Shown in pieces: positions 40,949 through 57,636 of a stretch of DNA of 64,000 bases (its first letter is position 1; every line of letters starts with the position of its first letter). The notes beneath the pieces are model-generated. The model saw only the letters and a list, made by a program, of their open reading frames with translations, was not told the origin of the DNA and did no database searches. This stretch comes from Cryomorphaceae bacterium 1068. GTDB lineage: Bacteria; Bacteroidota; Bacteroidia; Flavobacteriales_D; Cryomorphaceae. The stretch spans positions 1-64,000 of the forward strand of contig JAPVXR010000017.1 of assembly GCA_027214385.1 (NCBI GenBank), written 5' to 3'. The position numbers were made by a program, and so were the translations under genes.

Positions 40949-43900
40949 ATGCTCCCATCACCAAAGCAGATAACATTCTTCGTTTTCTGGCTGATATTAT
41001 TTCAGTCAGTCATTGGTGGTATCGACCCTCGGTTGGTAGAGAACAAAGGTCAATGGCACGAAAATGTTCATTTCAAGGCCCTTACTGATGGCGGATACTT
41101 TTTCATAGGAGAAGATGGCATTACTGTTCAGCAATTGGAGCAAGGCTTTTTCGATCACTTTCACGGCTACATACAAGGAAGTTCAGAAGAACCGCTGGCA
41201 AAAACGCATACGTTAAAGATCAACTTTATCGGTGGAGATTTCAGCGACTTTAGTGGAGAGGAGAATTTAGGTAGGGCTGACAACTTTTTTATTGGAAACA
41301 ATACGGCCAAACATGCTAAGGCAGTTCAGTCTTTTCAAAGATCTTACTACAGCAATGTCTACTCAAACATCGACTTACGGTTCGACATAAAAAGCGATCG
41401 ACTGAAATATGAGTTTCTGGTTGCGCCAAATGCTGATCCGAATGAAATTCAGATCAGTGTGAATCATGCTGAATCGATTGAAATTCGCGATGATCGTTTG
41501 ATTTTTAAGACGAGCATTGGTGAGGTTTACGAAGAGCCTCCGTTCGTCTATCAACTTGATGAGTATGGGCGTATCGAACGAGTAGAATGCAATTATCATT
41601 TAGCCGGAAACCTTGTGACCTATGAATTCCCGGAAGGTTATGACACCGCCCGAGAGCTTATAATTGATCCTGAAATATCCTTCTCGACATACGTCGGCGC
41701 ATTTTCCGATAATTTTGGCTTCACAGCCAGCTATGATGCCGATGGAGATCTTTACGGAGGGGCTATCGTTTTTGGTAGTGAATATCCAACTGTAGGAGGC
41801 CCCTTCCAAATAAATTTTGCGGGGGGAGTAATCGATTGTGGGATCACAAAATTCAGTGCAGATGGAACGGAATTGTTGTACAGCACCTTTTTAGGAGGAC
41901 TGGATAATGAAGCCCCGCACTCGCTGGTGGTCAATGAGAACAATGAGCTCTTTGTCTACGGAAGTACGGGGTCATTTGACTTTCCAACAACTACAGGTGC
42001 TGCACAAGAAAACTTTTCGGGAGGCCCTTCTTTAACGGGGCTCGGAGCATCCTACCTTCAGGGCTCAGACATTTTTGTTGCCAAAATCAGCGCAGATGGA
42101 ACTGACTTAATAGCTGCAACTTATGTTGGCGGGACAGGCAATGATGGCCTTAATTTTTCTCCGGCTCTGGAATTCAATTTCGGTGATCGATTTAGGGGGG
42201 AAATTGTAGTAGGTAATGAAGGAGATGTGTACGTGGCTTCCTCCACGGCGTCTGCTGACTTCCCCGCGGTAAACGGCTTCTCAAATGCTTTTAATGGTTT
42301 TTCCAATGGAACCGTATTTCGTTTGAGTGAAGATTTATCGACCCTAGTCTGGTCTTCCTCGACAGGCGGGCAGCTCGCTGAGGCAGCGTATGGTGTGCAA
42401 ATTGGACCCGACGGAACTATCTATATTACAGGTGGGACCGCCAGTTCAAATCTACCCGGAACTGCGAACGGAGCAAATCCAGATGCCAGTGGTGGTGTAG
42501 ATGGCTACATCATGCGAATTAGTGCCAATGGTGCAGTACTTCTTAACACAACTTACACGGGGACGAACGACTTTGATCAAACGTATTTTGTGCAATTGGA
42601 CACGGACGGAGAAGTATACGTCATCGGGCAATCGTTAGGAGATATGGAAGTATCAACAGGTGTTTATTCCAATCCCGGAGGGAAGCAATTTGTGCAGAAA
42701 TACAACAATGAGCTCACGAACTTGGAGTGGAGCACCACGATTGGAAGCAACGACAACCAAATCAACTTTTCTCCTTCGGCCTTTTTGGTGACCAACTGCA
42801 ATGATATTTATGTTTCAGGGTGGGGCGGATCCACCAATAATTTTGGCCAAGCCGGTGGAACAACTTTTGGATTACCTACGACTCCTGATGCATTTCAATC
42901 ATCAACCGATGGAAGTGACTTCTATCTGATGGTGCTCAGTGAAGATGCCCAAGATCTTACGTATGCTACTTACTTCGGCGGAAGTGAAAGTTCCGAACAT
43001 GTAGATGGCGGGACAAGTCGATTTGACAAAAACGGAACGGTTTATCAAGCTGTGTGCGCGGGTTGCGGAGGCTTGAGTGATTTTCCTAGTCAGCCCGGAG
43101 TTTGGTCACAAACCAATCCATCTTCCAACTGCAATTTGGGCGTTTTTAAGTTTCGGCTTAACTCCGTATCAGCATTGGCTGAAGTAGACTTCGATGCGAC
43201 TCCCCTGTGTGAAAATCAACCTGCAGTTTTTACTAATCTCAGTGAAGACGCTGATCTTTTTTTGTGGGATTTTGGCGATGACAATACCAGCACTGAATTT
43301 GAGCCTACTCACATTTATACTGAGCCCGGGATCTATGAAGTCACTCTTTTAGCAGAGGATAGTGAAGGTTGTTTAGGTCCCGATTCAACTACCATTGAAC
43401 TCGAAGTTCTCCCCTCGCCTGAAATTGAATTTGACTTTGAAAACAACCCGATTTGTCCGGGAGAACAATTGACTCTAGGGGCAAGTGGTGCAGACTCTTA
43501 CTTGTGGACACCTGCCGAAGTCTTTAATAACAACACCTTGGCAAATCCCATTTTCTCGGGATCAGAATCGACGACGGTTACCCTTACCGGTACTACTACG
43601 TGTGGTAGCCAATCATTAGAAGTAACTATTGAAGTTGGTACTGTCGAAGTTGAGCTGGAAGAAGAGATACTCATTTGCCCGGGTGAATCCGCCCAATTAA
43701 ACGCCTCCGGTGGCGTAGCCTATTCTTGGTTTCCCGCTACGTTTTTAGATGATCCCGATATCCCCAACCCAACCGTTACACCTGACACTGATGTAACTTA
43801 TGAAGTTACGGTGAGCACAGAGCAAGGATGTGAAGGGACGGGAAGTATCGAAGTCATCGTGTTGGATCCTCCTCCTGTACTTTCCGGAGAGACTGACTAT

Positions 43901-44824
43901 GCCACATGCAATTCCATTCCAGTGCAGCTTAATGTGAGCGGTGGCGACAACTATTCTTGGTTTCCGGAAACGGGCTTGAGCAATCCATCCATTTCAAACC
44001 CTACCGCAAACCCCTCATCTCCTACTGTTTACACAGTTACGACTAGCAATTCATGCGGCTCTTCCAGTCTGGATATTTTGGTGAGAACTGAGGCTATCGA
44101 TATTTCGATGACTACGGACTCTATCGGCTGTTTTCTGACGCCAATCGGCGTGAGTGCTTCCGGCGGTTCATCCTACAGATGGCAGCCGGAAAGTCTCTTC
44201 GCAGACCCGAATGCCGCGAATACTTCGGTTGAAATTACATCGTCAACCGAAATATCCGTCATTGGATTCAATGAAGATGGTTGTTTTGATATAGAGACTC
44301 GCTTGATTAGAATTTATCCCAGACAACCCATTTATCTGGGTCTTGATGAAGTTATTCCCTTTGGCGGTGAAGCGACTATTGAGGCTTTTAGCAATTTTCC
44401 CATTACGTGGGTTGAGAGTCCTTACTTGAGCTGCTTGGACTGCAGTAACCCCGTTGCATCACCACCTGAGACTTCGACCTTCTACGCCACTATAGAAACA
44501 CCTGACGGATGTATTGAAAGAGATTCGATTTTGGTAACAGTGACGGGAAACATTTACGTACCCAATGCTTTTTCTCCTGATGGGGATGGAATAAATGACA
44601 TTTTCAAAGCTCAGGGTATTGACATCGTTGAATTCAAAATGGAAATATTCAACAGGTGGGGAGAACTAGTGTTTACATCAAATTCAATAGACGATGGCTG
44701 GAACGGGAGCTCTCCGAATAACGAATATTACGCCCCCACAGACGTTTACCCTTATCGAATAGTCGCAAGAGAGCACACAGGGGAAGTATTCGAATTGAAA
44801 GGAATGGTGACGCTTATCCGTTAG
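40949..44824 (+). CDS. T9SS type B cargo: DUF7948, SBBP propeller and PKD-type surface protein
   Basis: 1291 residues. A signal peptide (about 1-24) is followed by a DUF7948-like N-terminal domain (about 25-230; ENKGQWHENVHFKAL...). SBBP-type seven-bladed propeller repeats (STYVGG/STFLGG, VAKISADGTDL) cover about 240-740. Next come a PKD domain (WDFGDDNTSTEFEPTHIY) and several SprB-type Ig-like repeats with (Y)SWFP...NPT-YTVT motifs (about 830-1190). The C-terminus is a gliding-motility type B sorting domain (VPNAFSPDGDGINDIF...FNRWG..VF). Exported across the outer membrane by type IX secretion and displayed on the surface; ligand unknown. It may use the PorP/SprF gene at 51379, but that is 7 kb away in another operon. 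Confidence 0.93.
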   Translation: MLPSPKQITFFVFWLILFQSVIGGIDPRLVENKGQWHENVHFKALTDGGYFFIGEDGITVQQLEQGFFDHFHGYIQGSSEEPLAKTHTLKINFIGGDFSDFSGEENLGRADNFFIGNNTAKHAKAVQSFQRSYYSNVYSNIDLRFDIKSDRLKYEFLVAPNADPNEIQISVNHAESIEIRDDRLIFKTSIGEVYEEPPFVYQLDEYGRIERVECNYHLAGNLVTYEFPEGYDTARELIIDPEISFSTYVGAFSDNFGFTASYDADGDLYGGAIVFGSEYPTVGGPFQINFAGGVIDCGITKFSADGTELLYSTFLGGLDNEAPHSLVVNENNELFVYGSTGSFDFPTTTGAAQENFSGGPSLTGLGASYLQGSDIFVAKISADGTDLIAATYVGGTGNDGLNFSPALEFNFGDRFRGEIVVGNEGDVYVASSTASADFPAVNGFSNAFNGFSNGTVFRLSEDLSTLVWSSSTGGQLAEAAYGVQIGPDGTIYITGGTASSNLPGTANGANPDASGGVDGYIMRISANGAVLLNTTYTGTNDFDQTYFVQLDTDGEVYVIGQSLGDMEVSTGVYSNPGGKQFVQKYNNELTNLEWSTTIGSNDNQINFSPSAFLVTNCNDIYVSGWGGSTNNFGQAGGTTFGLPTTPDAFQSSTDGSDFYLMVLSEDAQDLTYATYFGGSESSEHVDGGTSRFDKNGTVYQAVCAGCGGLSDFPSQPGVWSQTNPSSNCNLGVFKFRLNSVSALAEVDFDATPLCENQPAVFTNLSEDADLFLWDFGDDNTSTEFEPTHIYTEPGIYEVTLLAEDSEGCLGPDSTTIELEVLPSPEIEFDFENNPICPGEQLTLGASGADSYLWTPAEVFNNNTLANPIFSGSESTTVTLTGTTTCGSQSLEVTIEVGTVEVELEEEILICPGESAQLNASGGVAYSWFPATFLDDPDIPNPTVTPDTDVTYEVTVSTEQGCEGTGSIEVIVLDPPPVLSGETDYATCNSIPVQLNVSGGDNYSWFPETGLSNPSISNPTANPSSPTVYTVTTSNSCGSSSLDILVRTEAIDISMTTDSIGCFLTPIGVSASGGSSYRWQPESLFADPNAANTSVEITSSTEISVIGFNEDGCFDIETRLIRIYPRQPIYLGLDEVIPFGGEATIEAFSNFPITWVESPYLSCLDCSNPVASPPETSTFYATIETPDGCIERDSILVTVTGNIYVPNAFSPDGDGINDIFKAQGIDIVEFKMEIFNRWGELVFTSNSIDDGWNGSSPNNEYYAPTDVYPYRIVAREHTGEVFELKGMVTLIR

Positions 44825-45391: not shown

Positions 45392-48300
45392 CTACTTGAT
45401 TAATACAAATTCCGTGCGCCTGTTCTCAGCATGCTTCTCATTAGTGCAATAAACACCGTCTTTGCATTCATTGATCGGCTGGCTTTCTCCACGGCCTTCA
45501 TAGGTAAGTCTGTCAGCGTCTATCCCTCTTCTGATTAAGTATCTCACTACTTCTCTTGCTCTCAAGTTAGAGAGTTGCTCATTATAAGCTTTCGGACCCC
45601 TGCTGTCAGTATGTGAGAGAACTTTGATTTTCTGATTGGGGTTTTGGCGTAAGAAGCCATACAGGTTATCCAGAGATTCCGTTGACTCAGGACTCAAAGT
45701 ATAACTATCGAAAGAGTAATAGATGTTTGGAAGCGAAACAATTCTTTCGACCTCTTCTACTTCTGTAAAATCAAATTTCCAAAGGCCTTGAGATTCTAGC
45801 GTTCCGGACTTCTCAAATCCATGATAGGTTGATGTCAACTTCAAGGATTTCGTAACTTCTGCTTTAACAAAGTATATCGAATCCATCGGAACCTGACTAA
45901 AGCTAAACAGTCCATCTTCTATCGCATAAGATTTCGTTAAGAAGTTGTTTCTAGCCCCGAAAAGTAAAATTTCGTCATTGGCTTTTAGCTCATCAGACAT
46001 TCCCAATAGATTCACCAGAGTTTCATCTGCTTTCTCATTGATACTGTTTTCAGCGAGCTCGACTTCCTCTATTTCCGGCTTCATCGAAGGTGGCATCAGC
46101 TCGAATACAAATGCTGATGTGCCATCAGGCCGCACAGTTTGAGTAGTGTCACCCGATCCATCTATGATTACCAGTTTATCGCTAAAATTGAAATGGCTTT
46201 CTTTGAAAACTAACTCATATGCATTTCCCGTAGAAAGACTACCCATTTCCATAAAACCATCTTCATCCGGCACGCAGATTCTGATCAGTGAGTCACCCAA
46301 AGCTCTGAGTTCAGCCCTATCATTTAAAGCTAGGTCAGCGGTAGGCACAATGCCAAAAACAGCGGGAATTTCCTTATGCGTTGAAATCATCCAGTCTGCT
46401 TCTGGTCTGGCGCGGGTATAAGCAAAGCTGTTTCTGCCTTTCCCTTCTTCCATAGTGGTAATGGGTACTCCTGTCTGACCAATTACATCTATTTCAACAT
46501 CTCCTGTGGCACCTTTGGCAGTTAAGTTATATGGAGAATCCCAAGCTAAACCTTTGAGCAAAAACTGACCTGTACTATCAGTCGGAACCTCATCAATAGA
46601 AGTTCCTTCACTGTCTTGAAGAAGAACTGAAACATTTGCGAAATCTTCAGTTTCATCAGATACGACAGAACCGAGGAGGTCGAACATATCACTTTCATCT
46701 AAATTGTTTTCTTTCTTCAGGTCATACTCATCCGGCTCTAAAAACACAATCATGAAGGAAGAGGTATCTGAAGTAAACTCTTGGAATACATTTCCATTTT
46801 GGTCGTATGCGACTAGTTTAAGCGTAGTCTCAAATACTGAATCTGTTTCGATTGTATAAATCTCTCGCGTAACCACTCCTGAAATTTTCATTGACTTATC
46901 ACCGCCATTTATCCCAACCATCTCATTTCCTGACTTATCAAAAATTCGAATCGGTTTTTTAGCTCCACTCATATCTTCCAATGCGAGGGTCAGATTATCC
47001 AATTTCTTACCGGCTTCTGCAGGTACGGACTTATCAATAGCTGGTTGGATTGAATGAGAATTGAGTTCAAAAGCAAATGAAAAGGTTCCGTTGGGTCTAA
47101 TGGATTGGGTAGTATCTCCTGAATCATTTACGATTAGAAACATATCGTTCCATTCAAAATTACTGTCTTTGAAAACCAACTCATAGGCATGGCCCGTTGT
47201 AAGGCTTCCCATTTTAATATTACCATCATCGTCCACCTCACATATCCTAATCAAAGAATCTCCTTGTGCCCTCAGCTCGGGGCTATAGTCTGTATTGAGT
47301 TTTGATGTAGGTACAATTCCAAATACGGACGACAACACCATTTCAGTTGACATCATCCAATCCGCTTCCGGTCTGGTTCTCGTATATGCAAAACTGTCAT
47401 TGGCCTGTTTTTTCTGAAGTGTAGTAATGGGAGCTCCTGTTTGACCAAGAATATCAATTTCAACATCTTCCGGAGCATCCTTTGTCGTAAGGTTATAAGG
47501 TTGATCCCATGTCAATCCTTTGAATAAGAATTTCCCTGTACTGTCGGTTTTTACTTCACCTAAGGCATTGCCTGTTTTATCCTCCAGCACTACTGATACA
47601 TTGCTAAAATCTTGGGATTCGTTTGAGACCACAGTTCCAAACAGGTCATACAATTCGCTTTCATCCGTATTGTCTTCCTTGTTCATGTCGTACTCGTCCT
47701 GTTCCAAGAATTCGATATTGAACTCAGCCGTGTTAGAGTTGAATTCATGAACTATCTTGCCATCGCTGTTATAGGCCACCAATTTCAGCGATGAAGAAAA
47801 AACAGAGTCTGCCTTAACAGTATACAGCTCCCTGGTTAGCAAACCCGATACCGTCATGGTCATATCATCATTGTTGATCCCAACCATTTCGTTTCCAGAA
47901 CTGTCAAAAATGCGAAGCGACTTCTTAGCTCCACTTATGTCTTCCAAAGCAAAAGTGAGAGTATCCAAGACCGCGGATGCAGGCTGAAAATACATTTCGT
48001 AAATGTCATCCCCTCCAAAGCCTGTTATTCTATTGGACGAAAAATAGCCTGTTTTTTCGTCTACAAAATCTACCCCAAAATCATCATAAGCAGAATTTAT
48101 CGGGGCCCTCAAATTATAAGGAACATCATCGGCTGTAAGCAAACTCACATAGTACAAATCGAGTCCGCCGTATCCTTGATCTCTTCGGTCTGATGAGAAG
48201 AATAATCGATCATTACAGATTTTGGGATATAAATCGTTGCCAGGCGAGTTAATACCAGGCCCGGCGTTTTTGGGTAAGGTCCATTGACCTCCAACCCAAT

Positions 48301-49222
48301 CGGTATACCATAAATCCAGCTGTCCATAACCTCCGGGTCGATCACTGGCAAAGTACATTCTGTTTCCGTCATCAGAAAAAGTAGGATGTCCGGTGTTGTA
48401 ATTGCCGTTGTACTTGAAGGGTATAAGGTCCTCCTCATCTCCGGTTAACTTCGTAAAGAAAATATTCATTTTCAATTCGTAGAGTAGCCCTTCTATTTCT
48501 CGCAGTGTAACGGCATAAATTTCTTCATTGGGTCGTTTTTCAATCGGGCCATCGTGGTAGTAGTATTCTCTTCCTTTTAAAAGCATTTTGGACTTCCCAA
48601 ACTTGCCGTTCTCTCCTTTCGGACTCGTGAAAAAAAGATGCAAACTCTGGTTGGTAAATGCCGAAGGGTAAAGCACTTGCACCGTTAGGTGGTCAGCTAT
48701 ATATATCAACCCATCGTCAGTAACATAAGGGGCATATTCGTTATAAATGGTATTCAAACCCTGAATATCAGTAACGGAACTCTCTGTCGCTAAAGAATCC
48801 CATTCCAATAGATTCCCTGCTTTATTCAGCCATTTGTATCCTTGAACCATGGCCCCTCCTTCACTTAGCATTCTGGATAGGTTCACATATGCACGAGAAA
48901 AGTCATTGTTAGCAATCAGAACATCTGCATAGAGAATCATCTCTTTTTCATTGACAGATCTCTCAATATCCATCAATTCTGCAACGTCCAAGGCGTCTTG
49001 ATATCGCTGCAACTTATAATACGACTCTATCAAAAGATATCCTGCTTTTCTGTCTTCCATCTTCCCTTCAAAAGCTCTTCTAAGAGGTTTAATGGCATCT
49101 TCATATCTTCCTTCATCTACTAGTTTTTCTCCTTTTCTTGTTTGCGCCATTCCAACGGAAACAATCAAAATCAAAAGAAGCGGTAATCCTATCCTGAGGT
49201 ATTTAGATAACAACTGTATCAT
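45392..49222 (-). CDS. OmpA-family surface protein with TPR, PD40 propeller and a duplicated 322-residue unit
   Basis: 1276 residues. A signal peptide ends near residue 27 (GMAQ). TPR-like helices (about 28-150) are followed by a PD40/WD40-like propeller with repeated YFASDRPGGYGQLDLW-type motifs (about 150-410). Two tandem copies of a 322-residue beta-rich unit cover 420-741 and 742-1063. The C-terminus is an OmpA peptidoglycan-binding domain (HTDSRGPKAYNEQLSNLRA and NRRTEF). The tandem unit includes a carboxypeptidase-regulatory-like Ig section (TDSTGKFLFKGLTWDQPYNLT). It should sit in the periplasm and bind peptidoglycan. Last gene of the PorP/SprF operon, 27 bases after the previous OmpA gene. 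Confidence 0.92.
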   Translation of the reverse strand: MIQLLSKYLRIGLPLLLILIVSVGMAQTRKGEKLVDEGRYEDAIKPLRRAFEGKMEDRKAGYLLIESYYKLQRYQDALDVAELMDIERSVNEKEMILYADVLIANNDFSRAYVNLSRMLSEGGAMVQGYKWLNKAGNLLEWDSLATESSVTDIQGLNTIYNEYAPYVTDDGLIYIADHLTVQVLYPSAFTNQSLHLFFTSPKGENGKFGKSKMLLKGREYYYHDGPIEKRPNEEIYAVTLREIEGLLYELKMNIFFTKLTGDEEDLIPFKYNGNYNTGHPTFSDDGNRMYFASDRPGGYGQLDLWYTDWVGGQWTLPKNAGPGINSPGNDLYPKICNDRLFFSSDRRDQGYGGLDLYYVSLLTADDVPYNLRAPINSAYDDFGVDFVDEKTGYFSSNRITGFGGDDIYEMYFQPASAVLDTLTFALEDISGAKKSLRIFDSSGNEMVGINNDDMTMTVSGLLTRELYTVKADSVFSSSLKLVAYNSDGKIVHEFNSNTAEFNIEFLEQDEYDMNKEDNTDESELYDLFGTVVSNESQDFSNVSVVLEDKTGNALGEVKTDSTGKFLFKGLTWDQPYNLTTKDAPEDVEIDILGQTGAPITTLQKKQANDSFAYTRTRPEADWMMSTEMVLSSVFGIVPTSKLNTDYSPELRAQGDSLIRICEVDDDGNIKMGSLTTGHAYELVFKDSNFEWNDMFLIVNDSGDTTQSIRPNGTFSFAFELNSHSIQPAIDKSVPAEAGKKLDNLTLALEDMSGAKKPIRIFDKSGNEMVGINGGDKSMKISGVVTREIYTIETDSVFETTLKLVAYDQNGNVFQEFTSDTSSFMIVFLEPDEYDLKKENNLDESDMFDLLGSVVSDETEDFANVSVLLQDSEGTSIDEVPTDSTGQFLLKGLAWDSPYNLTAKGATGDVEIDVIGQTGVPITTMEEGKGRNSFAYTRARPEADWMISTHKEIPAVFGIVPTADLALNDRAELRALGDSLIRICVPDEDGFMEMGSLSTGNAYELVFKESHFNFSDKLVIIDGSGDTTQTVRPDGTSAFVFELMPPSMKPEIEEVELAENSINEKADETLVNLLGMSDELKANDEILLFGARNNFLTKSYAIEDGLFSFSQVPMDSIYFVKAEVTKSLKLTSTYHGFEKSGTLESQGLWKFDFTEVEEVERIVSLPNIYYSFDSYTLSPESTESLDNLYGFLRQNPNQKIKVLSHTDSRGPKAYNEQLSNLRAREVVRYLIRRGIDADRLTYEGRGESQPINECKDGVYCTNEKHAENRRTEFVLIK
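46034..47965 (-). repeat. 966-bp intragenic tandem duplication in the OmpA-family gene
   Basis: Two consecutive 322-codon units (47965-47000 and 46999-46034) align along their whole length: L-ALED-SGAKK-RIFD-SGNEMVGIN, TRE-YT, DSTG-FL-KGL-WD-PYNLT, G-T-AFVFEL. The copies differ at many positions, so the duplication is not recent. Codon phase is preserved. Confidence 0.88.
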
Positions 49223-49249
49223 AGTATTTTATATTTGGGGAGGTTATGG

Positions 49250-51373
49250 TTATTTCGTGCTGTAAAATTGTACTTCTATTCGTCTGTTCTCTGCATGTTC
49301 TTCATCCGTGCATTCAATTCCATCTGCGCACTTATTGACAAGTCGTGTTTCACCAAAACCCTCTCCTGAAATTCGGCTGGAATCAATCCCGCTTTGAACC
49401 AAATACTTCTTAACGCTTTCAATTCTCTGTTGAGAGAGTTTTAAATTGTACGCGGCCTCTCCTTTTGAATCAGTATGGCCTGCTAACTTTATTGCAACGT
49501 GAGGGTTGTCTTCCAATATTGAAATGAGTTTATTCAACACAACGTCTGCGCGTTGGCCAAGCATAGATTCATCCAGTTCAAAGTAGATAGAGGGAAGATT
49601 GAACTTTTCCTCCTCGGCTAGTTTGACCGTTACATTATCCTCATTGGTAATGGTGATTATTTTGTCAGATTCTTTCAATCGAACATAAACAAACTCTCCG
49701 CTCTCATCAGGCTTTATGCTTTCGATCACCTCTCCGTTTTGGTTGAAAATTCTAATCTCGGAATTCATATCTATCACAGCCGAGGTGAAAGAATAAGCCT
49801 CGTCGGGTCGAACCTGCTCAAAAGTAAATTCCCCTTTATCGTTGGTAAAAGCTCTGGCAATGGTAGTACCCTCCGAATCTTGTAAATAAATTTCAACCCC
49901 TTTTTGTGTCCCTTTAGAGGAACCGGAAAGAAAACCTGAAATATCAACAGACAGCATGCTCTCGTCTGTATTGACCACTTTGTCTAGGGAATAATCAGCA
50001 GGTGTGAGAAGTTCAAATTTGGCTTGACCTGATTCATCTAATTCCAGCTCTTCCATCAATCCAAAATTTTTGTCAAAAAGACGAACCTTATCGCCCTCAC
50101 TCAGCTTCCCTTCAGTAAATGAAATAGTATAGCCCTCAAGTCCCTTGATACTCGCGAAGGTGAATCGACCGTCTTTATTCACGTAAGTGTAATCAAGAAG
50201 ATTTCCGTCACTATCTAACAACTCTACTTTATCACCTGCGACTATTTCATCATTTTCCACTTCGCCATGGATGAGGTCAAATAGTAGTCTTGACTTGAAG
50301 GGTTTCACCTTCACAACCAAGTCAAGTGAATCAGGGAATAGCCTGTCGGTGCTAATAAAGGCTAACTCGCCTTTTACCGTGTATGGGTTAAAATCGTCGC
50401 TTACGCTATTCAAAGGCTCTCCGGGGTTTGCGATGCGCCCGTCGTGAAAAAGTAAAACGTCAAATCCCCCTATTGACCTCTCCGGGTTATTAGTCACGAA
50501 GTACAGGGAGTCACCTGCTTCTGAGGGATATAATTCATCAAACTCAGAGTTAACATCAGCACCCAAATTGATTGGTTCCCCTTCGTCAACATTGAGATTC
50601 ATCTTCCAAAGATCCATGCCTCCATAACCCCCTTCTCGATCGGAAGAAAATATGAGCCATCCGTCTTTGGTTACCGTTGGGTGAACGTATGCACTTTTTT
50701 TGTCAATCCATTTTAAAAGCTCGTGCTTCTTCCCATTCCAAGTATAAATGCCATAATTGTCATGAAATCCTGCAGAAGCCAGGGGTGCTTGGTGAAAGGC
50801 GCTATAGTAAAGTAGGGTGTCGTCGGTAATCCACCCTGTAGAAATTTTCAGCATATGCTTTTCCTGCACACGAGAAAACTCCTTGTTCAATTCTGCAAAG
50901 AATGTCGAATCTGCTCCTTCTAATTCGAAATACACCATTTCCTTAGAAGTCTTTCTGGGAAAATAGCTTGTTTGTACTTCTTCTCGTCGAATAAGGATTG
51001 GGCCATTCAATACGGCAAAAATCGTCTGAGAAACAGAGTCATTTTTTCCAAATGCTCTTACCGAATAAAGTTCATCCTTCTTTTTAATACCCAGAAACCC
51101 TTCCAACTCATGCCTCAATTCGACCGCCTCTTCACTTTGTTCTCCTTGAAGAATTTCCAGAGATTCTTCGTAACGGCCGTTCCATTTTAATACTTCGGCG
51201 TAGCGATAGCTTCCGCAGGAATACTCTCCGTTCATAACCAAATAGCGGTAAGCGCTCTTGAACTTGCCTTCCTCAATTAGATCGGTCAACTTTTCACAGT
51301 TGCGCGACTCATTTTGACTTTGAAGGCCAAAAGAGTAAAGAAACAATGCTATGATCAGGGGGAGACTGCGCAC
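49250..51373 (-). CDS. OmpA-family protein with PD40 propeller
   Basis: 707 residues. A signal peptide (about 1-18) precedes a short TPR-like region, then PD40 segments (FSSDREGGYGGMDLWKMNL and YFVTNNPERSIGGFDVLLF; about 130-330). Beta-rich carboxypeptidase-regulatory-like sections with FTNDKGEFTFEQVRPDEAYSF follow, and the C-terminal OmpA domain (HTDSKGEAAYNLKLSQQR, C-DGIECTDEEHAENRRIEV) covers about 595-707. It resembles the next gene but lacks the 322-residue duplication. Probably links the secreted complex to peptidoglycan. It lies 5 bases from the PorP/SprF gene. Confidence 0.92.
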   Translation of the reverse strand: MRSLPLIIALFLYSFGLQSQNESRNCEKLTDLIEEGKFKSAYRYLVMNGEYSCGSYRYAEVLKWNGRYEESLEILQGEQSEEAVELRHELEGFLGIKKKDELYSVRAFGKNDSVSQTIFAVLNGPILIRREEVQTSYFPRKTSKEMVYFELEGADSTFFAELNKEFSRVQEKHMLKISTGWITDDTLLYYSAFHQAPLASAGFHDNYGIYTWNGKKHELLKWIDKKSAYVHPTVTKDGWLIFSSDREGGYGGMDLWKMNLNVDEGEPINLGADVNSEFDELYPSEAGDSLYFVTNNPERSIGGFDVLLFHDGRIANPGEPLNSVSDDFNPYTVKGELAFISTDRLFPDSLDLVVKVKPFKSRLLFDLIHGEVENDEIVAGDKVELLDSDGNLLDYTYVNKDGRFTFASIKGLEGYTISFTEGKLSEGDKVRLFDKNFGLMEELELDESGQAKFELLTPADYSLDKVVNTDESMLSVDISGFLSGSSKGTQKGVEIYLQDSEGTTIARAFTNDKGEFTFEQVRPDEAYSFTSAVIDMNSEIRIFNQNGEVIESIKPDESGEFVYVRLKESDKIITITNEDNVTVKLAEEEKFNLPSIYFELDESMLGQRADVVLNKLISILEDNPHVAIKLAGHTDSKGEAAYNLKLSQQRIESVKKYLVQSGIDSSRISGEGFGETRLVNKCADGIECTDEEHAENRRIEVQFYSTK

Positions 51374-51378
51374 GCTTT

Positions 51379-52293
51379 TTAGAAGTTTCTTAACGAGGAC
51401 TGTTTTTCTTTGTAAAGATTGAAATCATAACCAATGAAAAGTTCGTGTGTGCCGCTTTGCTGTGACAGTATTGCGTTTGTGGTAAGATCATATGAATACC
51501 CAAAATGAAAATTATCGTTCAGGTAAAAATGACCACTGAAAACCATCCCAAATTGATAGCGATAAGTGGCTGTCAGCCAAAAAGCATTGTTGAATCTTGC
51601 GCTTAAATTGGCATCAAATTGCATGGTACCGTCAGTCTGCAATCGAATCAATGTACTTGGTTTCAGATCAACCTTATTCGAAACGGGAAAAATATAGCCT
51701 CCCACTACATTGAAGCTTGGTTCAAGTCTGGCATCGATCACATCGCTTGAAGTTAATTCGACCCCATTTAGGTTCATAACGCTTAAGCCAGCATACCCTC
51801 GAGTGGAAAGATACATGACCCCAAAATCAAAAACAGGCCTCCATTGATTGGCTTCATTTACAAATGCCACGGGATCTGATCCATCGGGAAAGTCGAGCTC
51901 ATTCCAATTGTACCGATGGTTCAAAGCGCCACCGCTCAGGGCAAATGAAATCTTACTGTTTCCTTCCAGTTGAAGCTTGTAAGAAACCGAGCCATGCATC
52001 GACGAGGTCTCTCTAGCGCCTACTTGATCGTTTTGAAACCAAAAGCCCACAGCCAAATTATTGTTGCGAACAGGAGAATGAGCCGAGAAATAGGCCGTTT
52101 TAGGCGCTCCATCAAATCCTACCCATTGGGTTCTATAGCTTAGCGCAGTCGCAACAGAATTGCGTTCACCGGCATAGGCAGGATTAATGGCGTACAGATT
52201 GAAAATGTATTGAGAATACAAAGAATGCTGCTGGCCAAATGACTCAGCCAATGCTGTGAACAGGAGAAATGATATGATTATGAATTTTCTCAT
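51379..52293 (-). CDS. Type IX secretion PorP/SprF-family outer-membrane protein
   Basis: 304 residues: signal peptide (ends at SFGQ, about 21), then the family signature HSLYSQYIFNLYAINPAYAGERNSVATALSYRTQWVGFDGAP, split over the first strand region. The rest is beta-barrel with a C-terminal FIGYDFNLYK-type strand. PorP/SprF proteins are needed for secretion or anchoring of type B cargo such as SprB. The overlap of 4 bases with the type B protein upstream fits that pairing; the OmpA genes follow. Confidence 0.94.
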   Translation of the reverse strand: MRKFIIISFLLFTALAESFGQQHSLYSQYIFNLYAINPAYAGERNSVATALSYRTQWVGFDGAPKTAYFSAHSPVRNNNLAVGFWFQNDQVGARETSSMHGSVSYKLQLEGNSKISFALSGGALNHRYNWNELDFPDGSDPVAFVNEANQWRPVFDFGVMYLSTRGYAGLSVMNLNGVELTSSDVIDARLEPSFNVVGGYIFPVSNKVDLKPSTLIRLQTDGTMQFDANLSARFNNAFWLTATYRYQFGMVFSGHFYLNDNFHFGYSYDLTTNAILSQQSGTHELFIGYDFNLYKEKQSSLRNF

Positions 52294-53048
52294 CTGATCA
52301 GTTCTATATAACCCTTATAAGTTATTCCGCCTGTTTCCAGAACATAGAAGTATGTTCCCGACAATAGTTCTTGGCCTGACTCAGACTCGCCGTTCCAGAC
52401 TACATCTTCATTGTTGTAGTTTCTCGCCGAATAGACTTGCTGACCCCATCGGTTAAAAATCTCCACTTTATTTTGTCTGAACTCATCCAAGGTTATGTTT
52501 TCAATAGTCCACGTATCACTCTTGCCGTCACCATCGGGTGTGAAGGCATTAAATATTCTGAGCGCACAATTGGTAGCAGGGCCGGGAACAATCTCAAACT
52601 CCACCGTTTCTTGACAAAAACTTGAAAACACGGTTACAGAATAGAACCCGGGCAACAACCTATCGAGACTATCTACTTCTATGACACCGTTGCTCCAAAC
52701 TATTTCATAAGGAGGAACACATCCGGTAAGATTGCTGATAAATGCACTACCATCAGAAGAGGTAGGGCACGAAGAAGCTGATGTAACGACATCGAAACTC
52801 AATAACCCTTCCGTCAGCGGCTGATGAAACCCCTGAGTTAGTGTAAAATCGTTGTTTCCAATTGTAGAGATGACAGATTCTCCAATGGTTTGCTCCAATA
52901 ATAGACCTCCGTTAAGCGAAAACGAACCTCCTGAAGAGCCGATTACCTGCCTGTCCAAAACCACTTGTGCTGAGCTTGATAAAGCCAGCAGCATAAGGAT
53001 GAAGGTTAGTATTTCGCGTTTTCTCAAGTTGAATCTAATTAGTCGCAT
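52290..53048 (-). CDS. Short T9SS type B cargo protein
   Basis: 252 residues. Signal peptide ends near 27 (SSAQ). The middle holds an unusual short region (about 30-85; QVIGSSGGSFSLNGGLLLEQTIGES) and an SprB-type repeat (about 90-160). The C-terminal type B sorting domain covers about 165-252 (IFNAFTPDGDGKSDTW...IFNRWGQQVYSA). The start at 53048 is ATG within the end of the upstream gene (14-base overlap); a TTG two codons earlier is also possible. It is an obvious client of the adjacent PorP/SprF gene. Confidence 0.9.
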   Translation of the reverse strand: MRLIRFNLRKREILTFILMLLALSSSAQVVLDRQVIGSSGGSFSLNGGLLLEQTIGESVISTIGNNDFTLTQGFHQPLTEGLLSFDVVTSASSCPTSSDGSAFISNLTGCVPPYEIVWSNGVIEVDSLDRLLPGFYSVTVFSSFCQETVEFEIVPGPATNCALRIFNAFTPDGDGKSDTWTIENITLDEFRQNKVEIFNRWGQQVYSARNYNNEDVVWNGESESGQELLSGTYFYVLETGGITYKGYIELIR

Positions 53049-55089
53049 ACTCAATTACAGCACCGTAAACTCCCTGTTCTACGCTATCTACATCAACCGC
53101 ATCGTCTCCTTCAAGAGCAGAAAAACGAACATAAAGTCGATATGAGTAAATGGAGTTGTCTATTTCGTTCAAATTGGTAATGTCAATGTCCAATTCTCTG
53201 TCTCCTGAAGGGCCGTTAGCTAAGACGGCTGTCAAAACCTCATTTCCCACACTAAAATTGGTCATGTTCTTTCTGTAAAGAGAAAATCGCATATTTCCAG
53301 GGCCAAAATCTCTATAGTATACTTTTAGATTATTTATGGTAGCACCATGAGGCAAATGAATTGGAGCCATTATTTCAATGATACCCGTGTTTCTCAACAT
53401 GGCAAATGGAGCATCATCATCAAAAAACTTCAACGCGTTGTGCTCTTCTAAATCCACCCCGATTTCATTGTCCGTCAATTCTCGAAAATCGAGAGGATCA
53501 ATACTATAAAATGAGGTAGTAGCAGAAGGAGTAACTGATGGGGAAGATTGCGGTTGCCACTCAGAATCCGTGGCGTTGTAAACAAGCACTTGTCCATCTG
53601 TTGGTGGAACAGCACTCACATCTGTCCCCATAATAGCGCTCACTTTTGTTTCCCCGGTATCATCTAAGATAAGGTCTCCAAAAACTTCCACTTGGCTCGC
53701 CTTATCTGATCCGTTTCCAATAAAAATAAAGCCCTGAGAAAGATCAGACTGATCATATGGACTTAAGTCAACAGTAGTGCCATCGCCTGAAAGGCTTAAG
53801 GTAGAACCTGACAAACTCAAATCTTGAATCTCATTGGATGGGTCGGCATCAGCATCATCACCCAAACCGGGAAGTGTGCTCAAGTCTACTGTCGTGCCAT
53901 CTCCTGAGAGACTTAAGGTAGAGCCCGAAATACTTAAATCTTGAATTTCGTTCGTTGGGTCAGCGTCGGCATCATCGCCTATTCCGGGTACATTACTCAA
54001 ATCTACGGTTGTCCCGTCACCCGTCAAACTCAAAGTAGAGCCCGAAAGTGTCAGGTCCTGGTTATCGGTATTATCCAAATATCCCGAAAGATCTACCGTA
54101 GTCCCGTCATCCGATAAGCTTAACGTATTTCCAGATAGACTCAAATCTTGAATCTCATTGGAAGGGTCGGCATCAGCATCATCGCCTATACCAGGTAAAG
54201 TGCTTAGGTCAACAGGAGTAACATCACCCGAAAGGGTCAAAGTTGTTCCTGATAGAGCTAAATCCTGATTGTCGGTATTGTCCAAATAAGACGAAAGATC
54301 GACTTGCGAATTACTCGGACTATTTGAAATGGATAGACTATTGTCTTCAAGTTCTAACTCCTGCAATTCGTTTGATGGGTCGGAATCTGAATCGAGTCCA
54401 AGACCGGGTAATTCACTTAAATCCACAGATGACTCATTTCCTGAAATACTCAAGGAAGTTCCGTTTAAACTGAGACTTTGAATTTCATTTAATGGATCGG
54501 CATCCTCATCCTGTCGCAGGGAGCTGAGCTCAACGGTATTGGTTTGATCTCCCTCAGTAATTAAAAGATTGGTTCCTTCCAATACTACAGCTTCAATGAG
54601 CTCGTTGGTGGAATCTCCATCTCCGTCAGGACTATTAGATCCGGAAGACTTCGCATAAAAGGCGTATGGCACCGTATTGAAAGGTGCCTCTTGAAGTATG
54701 TTCAATCCATTTCCAACATCGACCGAAAGTCGTAGCCAGATTTTTCCTGACTCCCAAGGAATCTCACTAAAACTATTTATTAGCGGATTCCCTTGACCAA
54801 GACTTAAATTAATGAGCCCTGCCTTCCCGGTTTGAATAGACGAAAACTCTTCTTGATAGATCAAGTCACCATTCGGACCATCTAGAAATTCTACAGAAAC
54901 ATAAGCTCCTTGATCTGAAATGGGTAGGAAAGTTGAGGCATCGCGAACTATTGCCTGGTAATTGATAGCCTCAGGAACGCTCTGACCATTGAGATTGGTT
55001 GCTGAAAAGCACACCATCCAAAGCGCCGACAGTAAAGCAATATGAAAACTGCTTACGTCTCTAAGTTTTAAGGGGGGAAACTTTGACAT
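53035..55089 (-). CDS. Surface repeat protein with eight Asp-rich beta-type repeats
   Basis: 684 residues. A signal peptide or membrane anchor covers about 1-37. A conserved N-terminal domain (INYQAIVRDASTFLPISDQ..., about 38-125) is shared with the next gene upstream. Eight repeats of about 32-40 residues follow, at about 161-448, of pattern (I)QDLSLSGSTLSLSGDGTTVDLS, many joined by DDADADPSNE-type linkers. The C-terminal domain (about 500-684) is beta-rich. The Asp-rich linkers look like calcium-binding DxDxD loops. It overlaps the type B gene downstream and lies 2 bases from the gene upstream. No T9SS sorting domain is recognised. Function unknown. Confidence 0.85.
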   Translation of the reverse strand: MSKFPPLKLRDVSSFHIALLSALWMVCFSATNLNGQSVPEAINYQAIVRDASTFLPISDQGAYVSVEFLDGPNGDLIYQEEFSSIQTGKAGLINLSLGQGNPLINSFSEIPWESGKIWLRLSVDVGNGLNILQEAPFNTVPYAFYAKSSGSNSPDGDGDSTNELIEAVVLEGTNLLITEGDQTNTVELSSLRQDEDADPLNEIQSLSLNGTSLSISGNESSVDLSELPGLGLDSDSDPSNELQELELEDNSLSISNSPSNSQVDLSSYLDNTDNQDLALSGTTLTLSGDVTPVDLSTLPGIGDDADADPSNEIQDLSLSGNTLSLSDDGTTVDLSGYLDNTDNQDLTLSGSTLSLTGDGTTVDLSNVPGIGDDADADPTNEIQDLSISGSTLSLSGDGTTVDLSTLPGLGDDADADPSNEIQDLSLSGSTLSLSGDGTTVDLSPYDQSDLSQGFIFIGNGSDKASQVEVFGDLILDDTGETKVSAIMGTDVSAVPPTDGQVLVYNATDSEWQPQSSPSVTPSATTSFYSIDPLDFRELTDNEIGVDLEEHNALKFFDDDAPFAMLRNTGIIEIMAPIHLPHGATINNLKVYYRDFGPGNMRFSLYRKNMTNFSVGNEVLTAVLANGPSGDRELDIDITNLNEIDNSIYSYRLYVRFSALEGDDAVDVDSVEQGVYGAVIEYATN
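53745..54610 (-). repeat. Eight tandem repeats within the surface repeat gene
   Basis: Successive units of about 96-120 bases encode (QD)LSLSG-TLSLSGDGTTVDLS with either LPGIGDDADADPSNE or YLDNTDN linkers. The later units are most alike at the DNA level, which suggests recent expansion or gene conversion in that part. Confidence 0.85.
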
Positions 55090-55091
55090 AT

Positions 55092-56453
55092 CTAATTTTC
55101 TCTAAGTATTCTGGTCCAACCATCAACTCCGAGAGAGAGCAAAACCGCCGTTTCTGCGCCAAACTCGTCCAAAACAAGATTTGGTGTGAAGAAATCAACG
55201 GGAAAAACTCCCGTATCTATCGTGACTTCGCCAAAGGCAGCAAAGGCTCCAGTCTTCCTGATGGTATAGACTCGTCCTTCGCATACGGAAGCCGGAGGCA
55301 AAAAGATACCAAAATCAAGATTTCCTAAAGGCTGAAAGTTGATCACAATCATGTGATCGTCAGCATTTGCAGTATAATTATCAGTGTCGCCAGACTCCAA
55401 CAAGGTCACATCATAGCCTACGGAGCCACCAAATTGCACCGTGCTAAGAGGCGATGAAGTTCCAATTCCAACCCGCTGATCTTCATTGTATACCGTGTTT
55501 TGGTCTTCGTCAATAATCCAATCCCCATCTTCTCTAAGCGGTGCAAGGTTTACCGAGTGCTCAATCCCTGCCTCACTCAAGGTTAAGATGGTATCGTTGG
55601 TCAAAGTGAAAGCTTCATCGTCGATGAGTTCGTTTGTTGGATCAGCATCTTCATCTTCGACCAAAATGTCCAGATTCACACTGTAAGAAATCCCAGCCTC
55701 AGATATAACCAAGTTCGTTCCTATGAGTTGTAGGCCTGAGTCTGAATCAATAAGTTCATTGGTCGGATCAGCATCAGCATCGGCAATGTTCAATTCGGCA
55801 AGTGAAATAATTACTTCACTGCCATCGGCTTGGGTCAGGGTAATAGTATTGTTCTCAGGATTAAACAGGGCCGAGGAAATTAATTCGTTGGTAGCATCTG
55901 CATCTGCATCATCCACGTTCAACCCTTCCAGTGGAATATTCACTACGTTTCCCGGCTCTTGGATATCAATGGATTGAGTTTCCTCATCAAATTGCGCTGA
56001 CGTGATCAGTTCATTTGTCGGATCATTGTCCAAAGATTCTTCTGCATTTCCTGCAAAGAGAGCATAAGGAACTGAAAGAAACCGGGATGATCCAAGACTT
56101 TCTAATCCCGAACCACTATCCACTTCAATTTCATACCAAATGTTTCCCGAAGCCCATGGTATGGCCTCAAAGCTCCCATCTGTGGCATCGCCTCCACCGA
56201 TAATGAGGTTGATCAACCCGAAGTCATTGGTTTGAATTCCCGAGTGAGATTCAGAGTAAACTATAGTTCCGTTAGGGCCCCCATCTCGAATAGTAACGAC
56301 TATAAATACCATCTCGTTTTTGAGTGCTTCACCAGATTCACTATCTCTAAGCGCCGCCTGGTAGTTGATCCCTTCAGGCGACTGAGCTGATGAAATCAAG
56401 CAGGAAAAAAAGAGGAGAAAAAAGGAGAAATACTTCGCGTGTTGGAATTTCAT
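55092..56453 (-). CDS. Surface repeat protein, paralogue of the 684-residue protein
   Basis: 453 residues. A signal peptide (MKFQHAKYFSFFLLFFSCLISSAQ-type, about 1-24) precedes the INYQAALRDSESGEAL N-terminal domain (about 25-125), the same as in the next gene. Four or so longer Asp-rich repeats (about 143-308; DADADPTNELI linkers) follow, then a C-terminal domain starting with VGIGTSSPLSTVQFGG. The start at 56453 is preferred, as it gives a normal signal peptide; an in-frame ATG at 56498 would add 15 residues. It is the first gene of the six-gene PorP/SprF operon. Function unknown. Confidence 0.83.
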   Translation of the reverse strand: MKFQHAKYFSFFLLFFSCLISSAQSPEGINYQAALRDSESGEALKNEMVFIVVTIRDGGPNGTIVYSESHSGIQTNDFGLINLIIGGGDATDGSFEAIPWASGNIWYEIEVDSGSGLESLGSSRFLSVPYALFAGNAEESLDNDPTNELITSAQFDEETQSIDIQEPGNVVNIPLEGLNVDDADADATNELISSALFNPENNTITLTQADGSEVIISLAELNIADADADPTNELIDSDSGLQLIGTNLVISEAGISYSVNLDILVEDEDADPTNELIDDEAFTLTNDTILTLSEAGIEHSVNLAPLREDGDWIIDEDQNTVYNEDQRVGIGTSSPLSTVQFGGSVGYDVTLLESGDTDNYTANADDHMIVINFQPLGNLDFGIFLPPASVCEGRVYTIRKTGAFAAFGEVTIDTGVFPVDFFTPNLVLDEFGAETAVLLSLGVDGWTRILREN

Positions 56454-56553: not shown

Positions 56554-57636
56554 TTATGGATAAGGGTAATTAATGGTAGGGTTTTTTTCACCCCAATGCT
56601 TTTCAAAACGCTCAATATTTATTTCGGAAGACAAGGTGACATCACCAAAAAGGAAATCAACAAAATGTGCTGAGAGAAAAGGTGCAAGCATGACTCCTTT
56701 AGTACCTAATCCATTAAATAGATAAAGGTTTTCTTCTTTTGGGTGTTCGCCTATGAGAGGCCTTCTATCCTGAACAGTAGGCCTGATTCCTGCTTTGTGA
56801 TCAATGATTTCGTATGCGCAAGTAAAATATGTTTCAAACTTGTCAAGCAACTCCTTTTTGCCTGCTTCAGTGGGGTCAGGGGTTTTATCCTTCCAGCTAA
56901 AAGTGGCGCCAACTCTGTAAAGCTCATTGCCCAAAGGCAAAACAAAAAATCCTGCATTAAAGGTCTGCTCTAGCTTAAGCCCCGGGCATTTCAGTGTCAG
57001 CACTTCACCTTTTGTTAAGCCAAAAGGTAGGTAGGACCACCAATCACTCATCGATGATCGATTTCCTCGACAATCAATGACTTTGGTAAAGTCAACGGGG
57101 CGATCAAGGGCATCCTTCAGCTCTTTAATAGAAGGACTTATACTAAGACTAACATCTTGAAAACATCCTTTTTCGGCAATGTATCGCCTGGAGGCGGTTA
57201 AGAAAACAGGAATGTCCAAATATCCTGCATGTCTCACTTCGCCTTCTCCAAATTCGGGAATTCGACCAAATAATTCCTCCAATTTCGGAGGAGGGTTGAA
57301 TAGGTATGGGATAAAACCAGGTAGATCATTTTTTTCAAACCACTTGTCTCTTTCCTGTTTGGAGCCATGAATTCGCCATACCGGACGAGGTTTATAAAAA
57401 TTGACTTCAAGAAGAGATTCCATTCGGGGATAAAACGATTCCAATTCGCTGATGAATTCATCAGCCATCCAACTCTTATTTATTCTTCTGAAAACAATGG
57501 GGTTCCAAAGTCCTGCCGCCACCATGGAGCTCGATGATTTGTAGCCGTCATCAAAAACAACAAAATCAATTCCTTTTTCCAATAATCTCAACGCAAGTGC
57601 AGTTCCCGCAATGCCCTGACCTAAAATAGCTATCAC
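56554..57636 (-). CDS. FAD-dependent oxidoreductase (DAO family)
   Basis: 360 residues. The N-terminal Rossmann motif ILGQGIAGTALALRLLEKG with Asp at the end of strand 2 (VVFDDG) binds FAD. The DAO-family features are SMVAAGLWNPI and the C-terminal FNGLGTKGVMLAPFLS. The fold and size fit the glycine oxidase/ThiO and MnmC C-terminal group; substrate is not deducible. Tandem to the DUF3667 gene, with 14 bases between. Confidence 0.85.
   Translation of the reverse strand: MIAILGQGIAGTALALRLLEKGIDFVVFDDGYKSSSSMVAAGLWNPIVFRRINKSWMADEFISELESFYPRMESLLEVNFYKPRPVWRIHGSKQERDKWFEKNDLPGFIPYLFNPPPKLEELFGRIPEFGEGEVRHAGYLDIPVFLTASRRYIAEKGCFQDVSLSISPSIKELKDALDRPVDFTKVIDCRGNRSSMSDWWSYLPFGLTKGEVLTLKCPGLKLEQTFNAGFFVLPLGNELYRVGATFSWKDKTPDPTEAGKKELLDKFETYFTCAYEIIDHKAGIRPTVQDRRPLIGEHPKEENLYLFNGLGTKGVMLAPFLSAHFVDFLFGDVTLSSEINIERFEKHWGEKNPTINYPYP

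Follow-up and report, generated by a model that had tools for sequence, protein, structure and literature searches.

A candidate T9SS-sorted adaptor for fibre proteins related to mosaic adhesive trimers in an operon of a Cryomorphaceae bacterium

The six-gene operon described here probably encodes one peptidoglycan-anchored fibre organelle, in which a small T9SS-sorted adaptor holds fibres. It lies on the minus strand of the window, i.e. the whole analysed stretch of 64,000 nucleotides of contig JAPVXR010000017.1 from Cryomorphaceae bacterium 1068, whose genome has 4.3 Mb, with Flavobacteriales/Cryomorphaceae metagenome genomes as the closest named relatives. T9SS, PorP/PorE and MAT fibres are already known, and what is new is their combination and the N-terminal module of the adaptor: in the main texts of the open-access literature we found neither the module nor T9SS adaptors of MATs described, nor Bacteroidota MAT fibres or a dedicated PorP clade. 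The genes are the following:

55092-56453, minus strand: putative MAT-type fibre protein 1, 453 aa, with a Bdello_MAT_N match and no T9SS CTD
53035-55089, minus strand: putative MAT-type fibre protein 2, 684 aa, with an N-domain match, a tandem repeat and a tip shared elsewhere
52290-53048, minus strand: candidate T9SS adaptor with signal peptide, module, SprB-like Ig domain and type B CTD (TIGR04131; alignment of 18 such adaptors); the start taken is the ATG at 53048, the ORF list having an upstream TTG at 53054
51379-52293, minus strand: PorP/SprF-family outer-membrane protein of the cassette clade (TIGR03519, 243 bits, cut-off 90.55)
49250-51373, minus strand: PorE-like OmpA/PD40 protein 1, 707 aa, GTG start (PF00691, PF13620, PF07676)
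45392-49222, minus strand: PorE-like OmpA/PD40 protein 2, 1276 aa, with TPR, PD40, regulatory-like and OmpA domains (PF12895/TPR, PF07676, PF13620, PF00691)

All six open reading frames of an earlier note were found with the coordinates, gaps and overlaps given there (spacings of +2, -14, -4, +5 and +27 bases between consecutive genes), and its assignments of a PorP/SprF protein, a type B cargo and two OmpA/PD40 proteins agree with TIGR03519, TIGR04131 and the Pfam domains. The order MAT, short type B protein, PorP, OmpA/PD40 was found again in 18 loci, which represent four families of the order, so the linkage exceeds chance. This gene order in relatives bears out the conserved unit that had been proposed, and the type B protein and the PorP, recurrent neighbours in these 18 loci, indeed belong together. 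Promoter and terminator scans of the operon region stayed at shuffle level and gave no signal either way. In several genera of the family, the gene for an FAD-dependent oxidoreductase (window 56554-57636) and the genes preceding it occupy the same place beside the cassette.

Mechanistically, we propose that the two MAT-type proteins, which have Sec signals and no T9SS signal, would form phage-tail-like fibres, by homology presumably trimeric, in which the N-domain makes up the base and an adhesive tip points outward. The module at the mature N-terminus of the adaptor would bind the fibre N-domain, while the type B CTD would route the adaptor through the T9SS and dock it on its dedicated PorP. 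The adaptor on the PorP would then bring the fibre out by its base, or catch it there later, and the PorE-like OmpA/PD40 proteins would tie the PorP to the peptidoglycan. Where relatives have a type A adaptor, such a fibre would instead be attached through the general type A route. T9SS substrates have been reported to exit the translocon CTD-first and carrier-bound (PMC10994853), and type B substrates require cognate PorP/SprF shuttles (PMC12618676).

The earlier reading had overlooked two elements, the MAT-type N-domain of the repeat proteins and the N-terminal module of the short cargo. Its Asp-rich repeats are present, but the proteins that carry them are not generic repeat proteins, as they have a MAT-type N-domain and the parts of a fibre. 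The two are paralogous, as had been claimed (39%, E=8.6e-30, across the N-domain and the initial repeats), and their parts can be listed as follows:

56043-56384, minus strand: MAT-type N-domain of fibre 1, immediately behind the signal peptide (profile A1, E=4.3e-42; AlphaFold pLDDT about 93-98)
55524-56036, minus strand: shaft of fibre 1, DADADPTNEL repeats with the capping-loop motif at the end (alignment A6)
55095-55418, minus strand: fibre 1 tip domain, which is conserved among 16 type B cassettes, with Foldseek matches to phage tailspikes and fibres
54646-54978, minus strand: MAT-type N-domain of fibre 2 (profile A1, E=5.7e-34)
53761-54047, minus strand: tandem repeat of fibre 2, 117 bp (repeat scan)
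53038-53529, minus strand: tip of fibre 2, common to loci L045, L050, L052 and L061

That both proteins are relatives of the Bdellovibrio MAT fibres is highly probable from the N-domain matches together with independent matches of a fibre 1 profile to PDB entries. NF053851 (Bdello_MAT_N), the N-domain model of the Bdellovibrio mosaic adhesive trimer fibres, scores 38.0 bits with fibre 1 and 24.4 bits with fibre 2; it was matched by 34/34 diverse Bacteroidota N-domains (best 7.4e-13), and another plausible family by none of them. As none of the tested Bacteroidota N-domains reaches the curated cut-off of 60 bits, the window proteins are filed as MAT relatives and not as members of the curated subfamily, and neither has a Pfam match above cut-off. 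When a profile of 16 fibre 1 relatives was compared with the PDB (177,635 sequences), four entries were found at E<1, all of them Bdellovibrio MAT fibres (8OND, Bd2133, 3e-5; 8OJN, Bd3182, 6e-5; 8OML; 8ON4), with E-values that are whole-sequence sums of several weak stretches, through the capping-loop region. The capping-loop motif VGIGTxxPxSxL described for MAT fibres (PMC10769870) occurs in 24/91 MATs as compared to 3/581 other ORFs; it is present in fibre 1, and none was seen in fibre 2. In the AlphaFold model of fibre 1 (pLDDT 79.5, pTM 0.35), the tip and the nearly all-beta N-domain of about 130 aa are confident and the shaft is poorly placed, and in Foldseek this model is best matched by phage tailspikes and tail fibres, though the whole-chain TM-scores are low. 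Like the MATs of the predator Bdellovibrio bacteriovorus (PMC10769870; NF053851), fibres with which it binds its prey, the window proteins combine a signal peptide, a beta-rich N-domain, a shaft, a capping-loop motif (in fibre 1) and phage-like mosaic tips; they differ by the other phylum, the unreached N-domain cut-off, the Asp-rich shaft repeats and the T9SS adaptor partner.

Relatives of fibre 1 were found in 112/150 genomes of the order, nearly always matching through the N-domain. The idea that the repeat proteins are simply the variable outer part did not hold: fibre 1 relatives of the 16 type B cassettes keep the tip and vary mainly in the number of shaft repeats, and the tip of fibre 2, which differs from that of fibre 1, is also found on MATs outside this cassette, a sharing that is the mosaic pattern to be expected for MATs. 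Very long N-domain ORFs, of 4741 residues (G283:C96:16282) and 4163 residues (G260:C3:14240), also exist, each with a module gene beside it.

The second overlooked element is the N-terminal module of the adaptor, which has the following domains in the window:

52818-52970, minus strand: adaptor module, SxxG..T.GE..LTQGFxQ (profile A2, E=1.2e-19)
52293-52568, minus strand: type B C-terminal sorting domain (CTD) of the adaptor (PF13585, 88 bits; TIGR04131, 53.5 bits, cut-off 35)

The module comprises about 50 residues (29-79 in the window's short type B protein, numbered from the upstream TTG) and belongs to no Pfam or NCBIfam family. In the 80 loci that were read, the MAT gene is often adjoined by that of a small secreted protein ending in a T9SS CTD, and this protein carries either a type A or a type B CTD behind the module. 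The modules of the two forms are homologous (hhalign E=4e-17), and profiles made from one CTD kind found 12/12 and 28/31 of the other. Type A adaptors have about 155 aa, consisting of module and CTD, with no recognizable catalytic or adhesive domain. No fused adaptor-MAT protein was found. At one locus (L150:4023-4481), the module is fused to dockerin-like repeats instead of a T9SS CTD, beside a MAT gene.

The genes of module and MAT are paired. Because the module profile had been derived from MAT neighbors, the pairing was examined genome-wide, and in 20 mostly contiguous genomes 42/44 modules lie less than 3 kb from a same-strand MAT N-domain, where 0.1 would be expected. In a phylum sample of 148 genomes, 33/34 modules are within 3 kb of a same-strand MAT gene (two genomes used in training being left out of this count), and a MAT gene is present in 27/27 module-bearing genomes, with 105 genomes having neither (Fisher p=9e-19). 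Of the same-strand MAT neighbors, 45/91 carry a T9SS CTD as compared to 28/505 other genes, a comparison based on 78 named loci found by the N-domain alone and two viral-contig loci. One of these two viral contigs, L273 from IMG/VR, has a type A adaptor in addition to its MAT N-domain and may therefore be host DNA. The reverse pairing is weaker, as a module is undetected beside about a quarter to half of the MAT genes (37/134 in the loci retrieved, some of which lie at the end of a contig), owing in part to contig ends and divergence. In some Chitinophaga and Bacteroidales loci, the module is a few genes away from the MAT, apparently in the same operon. Three genomes of one genus (G103, G106, G127) have about 11 MATs each, and no adaptor was detected beside those read; either these MATs are displayed in another way or their module has diverged. 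In four Chitinophaga loci, a Lys/Pro-rich small secreted protein of 139-163 aa is encoded immediately before the MAT; the adaptor follows two genes beyond it on the upstream side in L239 and L245, and a module gene is located downstream in L207 and L210.

Do adaptor and fibre touch each other? The evolutionary distances between modules correlate with those between N-domains (rho 0.45), and when partners were swapped within genomes, the mean rho was 0.24 and the observed value was never reached in 2000 trials, but tight linkage and joint inheritance can also yield such co-evolution. An AlphaFold model of a joined adaptor-N-domain chain, obtained by reading through the adaptor stop codon, gave domains that are separately confident and no confident interface (pTM 0.58, module pLDDT about 53-79); Foldseek matches of this model are mostly Ig-like, and its CTD part matches T9SS CTDs (8glk, 8qb1). 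For these two reasons, linked inheritance and the lack of a confident interface, the physical contact stays an inference. The position of the domains suits it, as the N-domain (91 MATs) and the module both begin right after the signal peptide, at median residue 21 in either case, which fits an arrangement in which the adaptor holds the fibre base and turns its own C-terminus to the membrane. Binding of the fibre by the adaptor is thus a good deal more likely than its absence, whereas the co-export of both is tentatively suggested and could well turn out otherwise; the least certain point is the way out of the fibre, which may leave together with the adaptor or be exported on its own and caught afterwards. 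The fibres would be located at the surface.

The export question had already been raised in the earlier note, which saw no sorting domain on the repeat proteins, and this observation extends to the whole family: a T9SS CTD was found on 0/91 MATs and a lipobox-like motif on 1/91. A hidden CTD and a lipoprotein-type surface export of the fibres were rejected on these grounds, and the T9SS-sorted adaptor, which accompanies the majority of these fibre genes, is a candidate answer. To our knowledge, Bdellovibrio has no T9SS. As MATs are on the surface in that lineage (PMC10769870), this adaptor cannot be a general requirement of the N-domain across lineages, and some Bacteroidota MATs also have no adaptor nearby. 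Both facts agree with an alternative in which the adaptor acts solely as an anchor or receptor and the MAT crosses the outer membrane by other means, docking on the displayed module afterwards. The cassettes, however, contain no other recurrent export gene, and the MATs themselves lack the CTD and, with the one exception, the lipobox, and we therefore regard this alternative as unlikely, if worth keeping in mind. More doubtful is the view that the adaptor is an independent small surface protein or an assembly cap that makes no contact with the fibre, the genes being merely co-regulated. PG1035, a type B protein of P. gingivalis, has been proposed to cap PorP (PMC9143113), and the absence of an interface in the AlphaFold prediction would agree with this view, but throughout the phylum modules hardly ever occur apart from a MAT gene, which holds for both gene orders and both CTD types, and the partners match each other within genomes.

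The adaptor occurs in two forms. A type A CTD is present in 72/73 upstream adaptors (a set that includes a few downstream of their MAT) and a type B CTD in 18/18 downstream adaptors (TIGR04131 at E<0.001), and eight genomes have both forms. The type B pairs are accompanied by an OmpA/PD40 gene in 18/18 cases and by a PorP gene in 18/18 cases (one seen only by six-frame search), whereas the corresponding numbers for type A pairs are 0/73 and 3/73. Type A substrates of the T9SS use the PorV carrier and are then linked to lipopolysaccharide or released. Most relatives' adaptors share the CTD of such PorV-carried substrates (TIGR04183), differing in that they are tiny and contain the module only. 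The combination of a module with a type A CTD and no PorP or PorE gene suggests that in most relatives the fibre is fixed by the general type A route.

In case of the type B form, the 17 cassette PorPs, which come from four families of the order, constitute one clade among 56 PorPs, apart from the 39 others (support 100/98, recovered in all bootstrap trees), although the genomes examined have about 14-16 PorP paralogues each; the cassette PorP is an old, dedicated carrier. The PorE domain order of TPR, beta-propeller, regulatory-like and OmpA domains is found in the 45392-49222 protein, and no TPR was detected in that of 49250-51373. With NF052230 (T9SS_PorE), the two score 232 and 157 bits at a cut-off of 600, the CHU_0125 model also remains below its cut-off, and no lipobox cysteine was seen in their signal peptides. 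The closest precedent is the Porphyromonas gingivalis PorE-PorP-PG1035 complex (PMC9143113), which anchors a type B protein via PorP and PorE to the membrane and the peptidoglycan. It has in common with the window a type B CTD protein, a PorP and a TPR/propeller/regulatory/OmpA protein, and in view of this precedent the PorE-like proteins point to peptidoglycan anchoring, as had been supposed; differences are that the window has two PorE-like proteins without lipobox and a module on its type B protein, while a fibre partner of PG1035 is unreported. A second client of the cassette PorP may be a 1291-aa type B CTD protein (DUF7948, PKD) encoded convergently with the operon on the plus strand (window 40949-44824), since it has no PorP of its own and a type B gene is located at the matching position in another genus (L046).

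SprB/SprF, which had been named as the closest parallel, fits less well. Like the Flavobacterium johnsoniae SprB-SprF system (PMC12635249), the operon combines a type B protein with a dedicated PorP/SprF, and it could on this basis encode a gliding adhesin that moves on the GldK track. SprF is linked to this track by a Cys-X-Cys site in its periplasmic C-tail (PMC12635249), but no cysteine occurs among the final 40 residues of any of the 17 cassette PorPs, which makes a static PorE-type anchor more likely than gliding, and a gliding-type PorP was rejected for this reason. Moreover, 18/18 cassettes encode PorE-like anchors, while no porE-like gene adjoins sprF (PMC9143113), and the type B protein is small and not itself the adhesin, so that gliding is a very improbable function of this operon. 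That the fibres are prophage or phage-tail parts and no cell-surface organelle, as the resemblance of the fibre model to phage tailspikes and fibres might suggest, can practically be dismissed and was rejected, given the Sec signal peptides, the lack of recognized phage genes in the cassettes, the chromosomal position conserved in the family and the mere 2 N-domain relatives in 2.9 million viral contigs.

What would a fibre-holding adaptor mean? The surface element that is bound by the Bdellovibrio MAT N-domain was reported as unidentified (PMC10769870), and the module of about 50 residues is a concrete candidate for such an element. Many tiny T9SS proteins have little beyond a sorting domain, and holding a partner may be their function; the module-bearing adaptors in this way suggest how proteins that have no signal of their own might use the T9SS. 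We consider it possible, though the balance is slightly against it, that CTD-less trimeric fibres are a new class of T9SS clients, exported by an adaptor that grips their base, with type A and type B forms being interchangeable. If so, the same kind of fibre could be given different anchors, and the natural exchange between the two CTD types on a single module offers a ready test of the role of the CTD in anchoring. Should fibres indeed be carried by adaptors, MATs would be a phylum-wide surface system of the Bacteroidota with a known base receptor.
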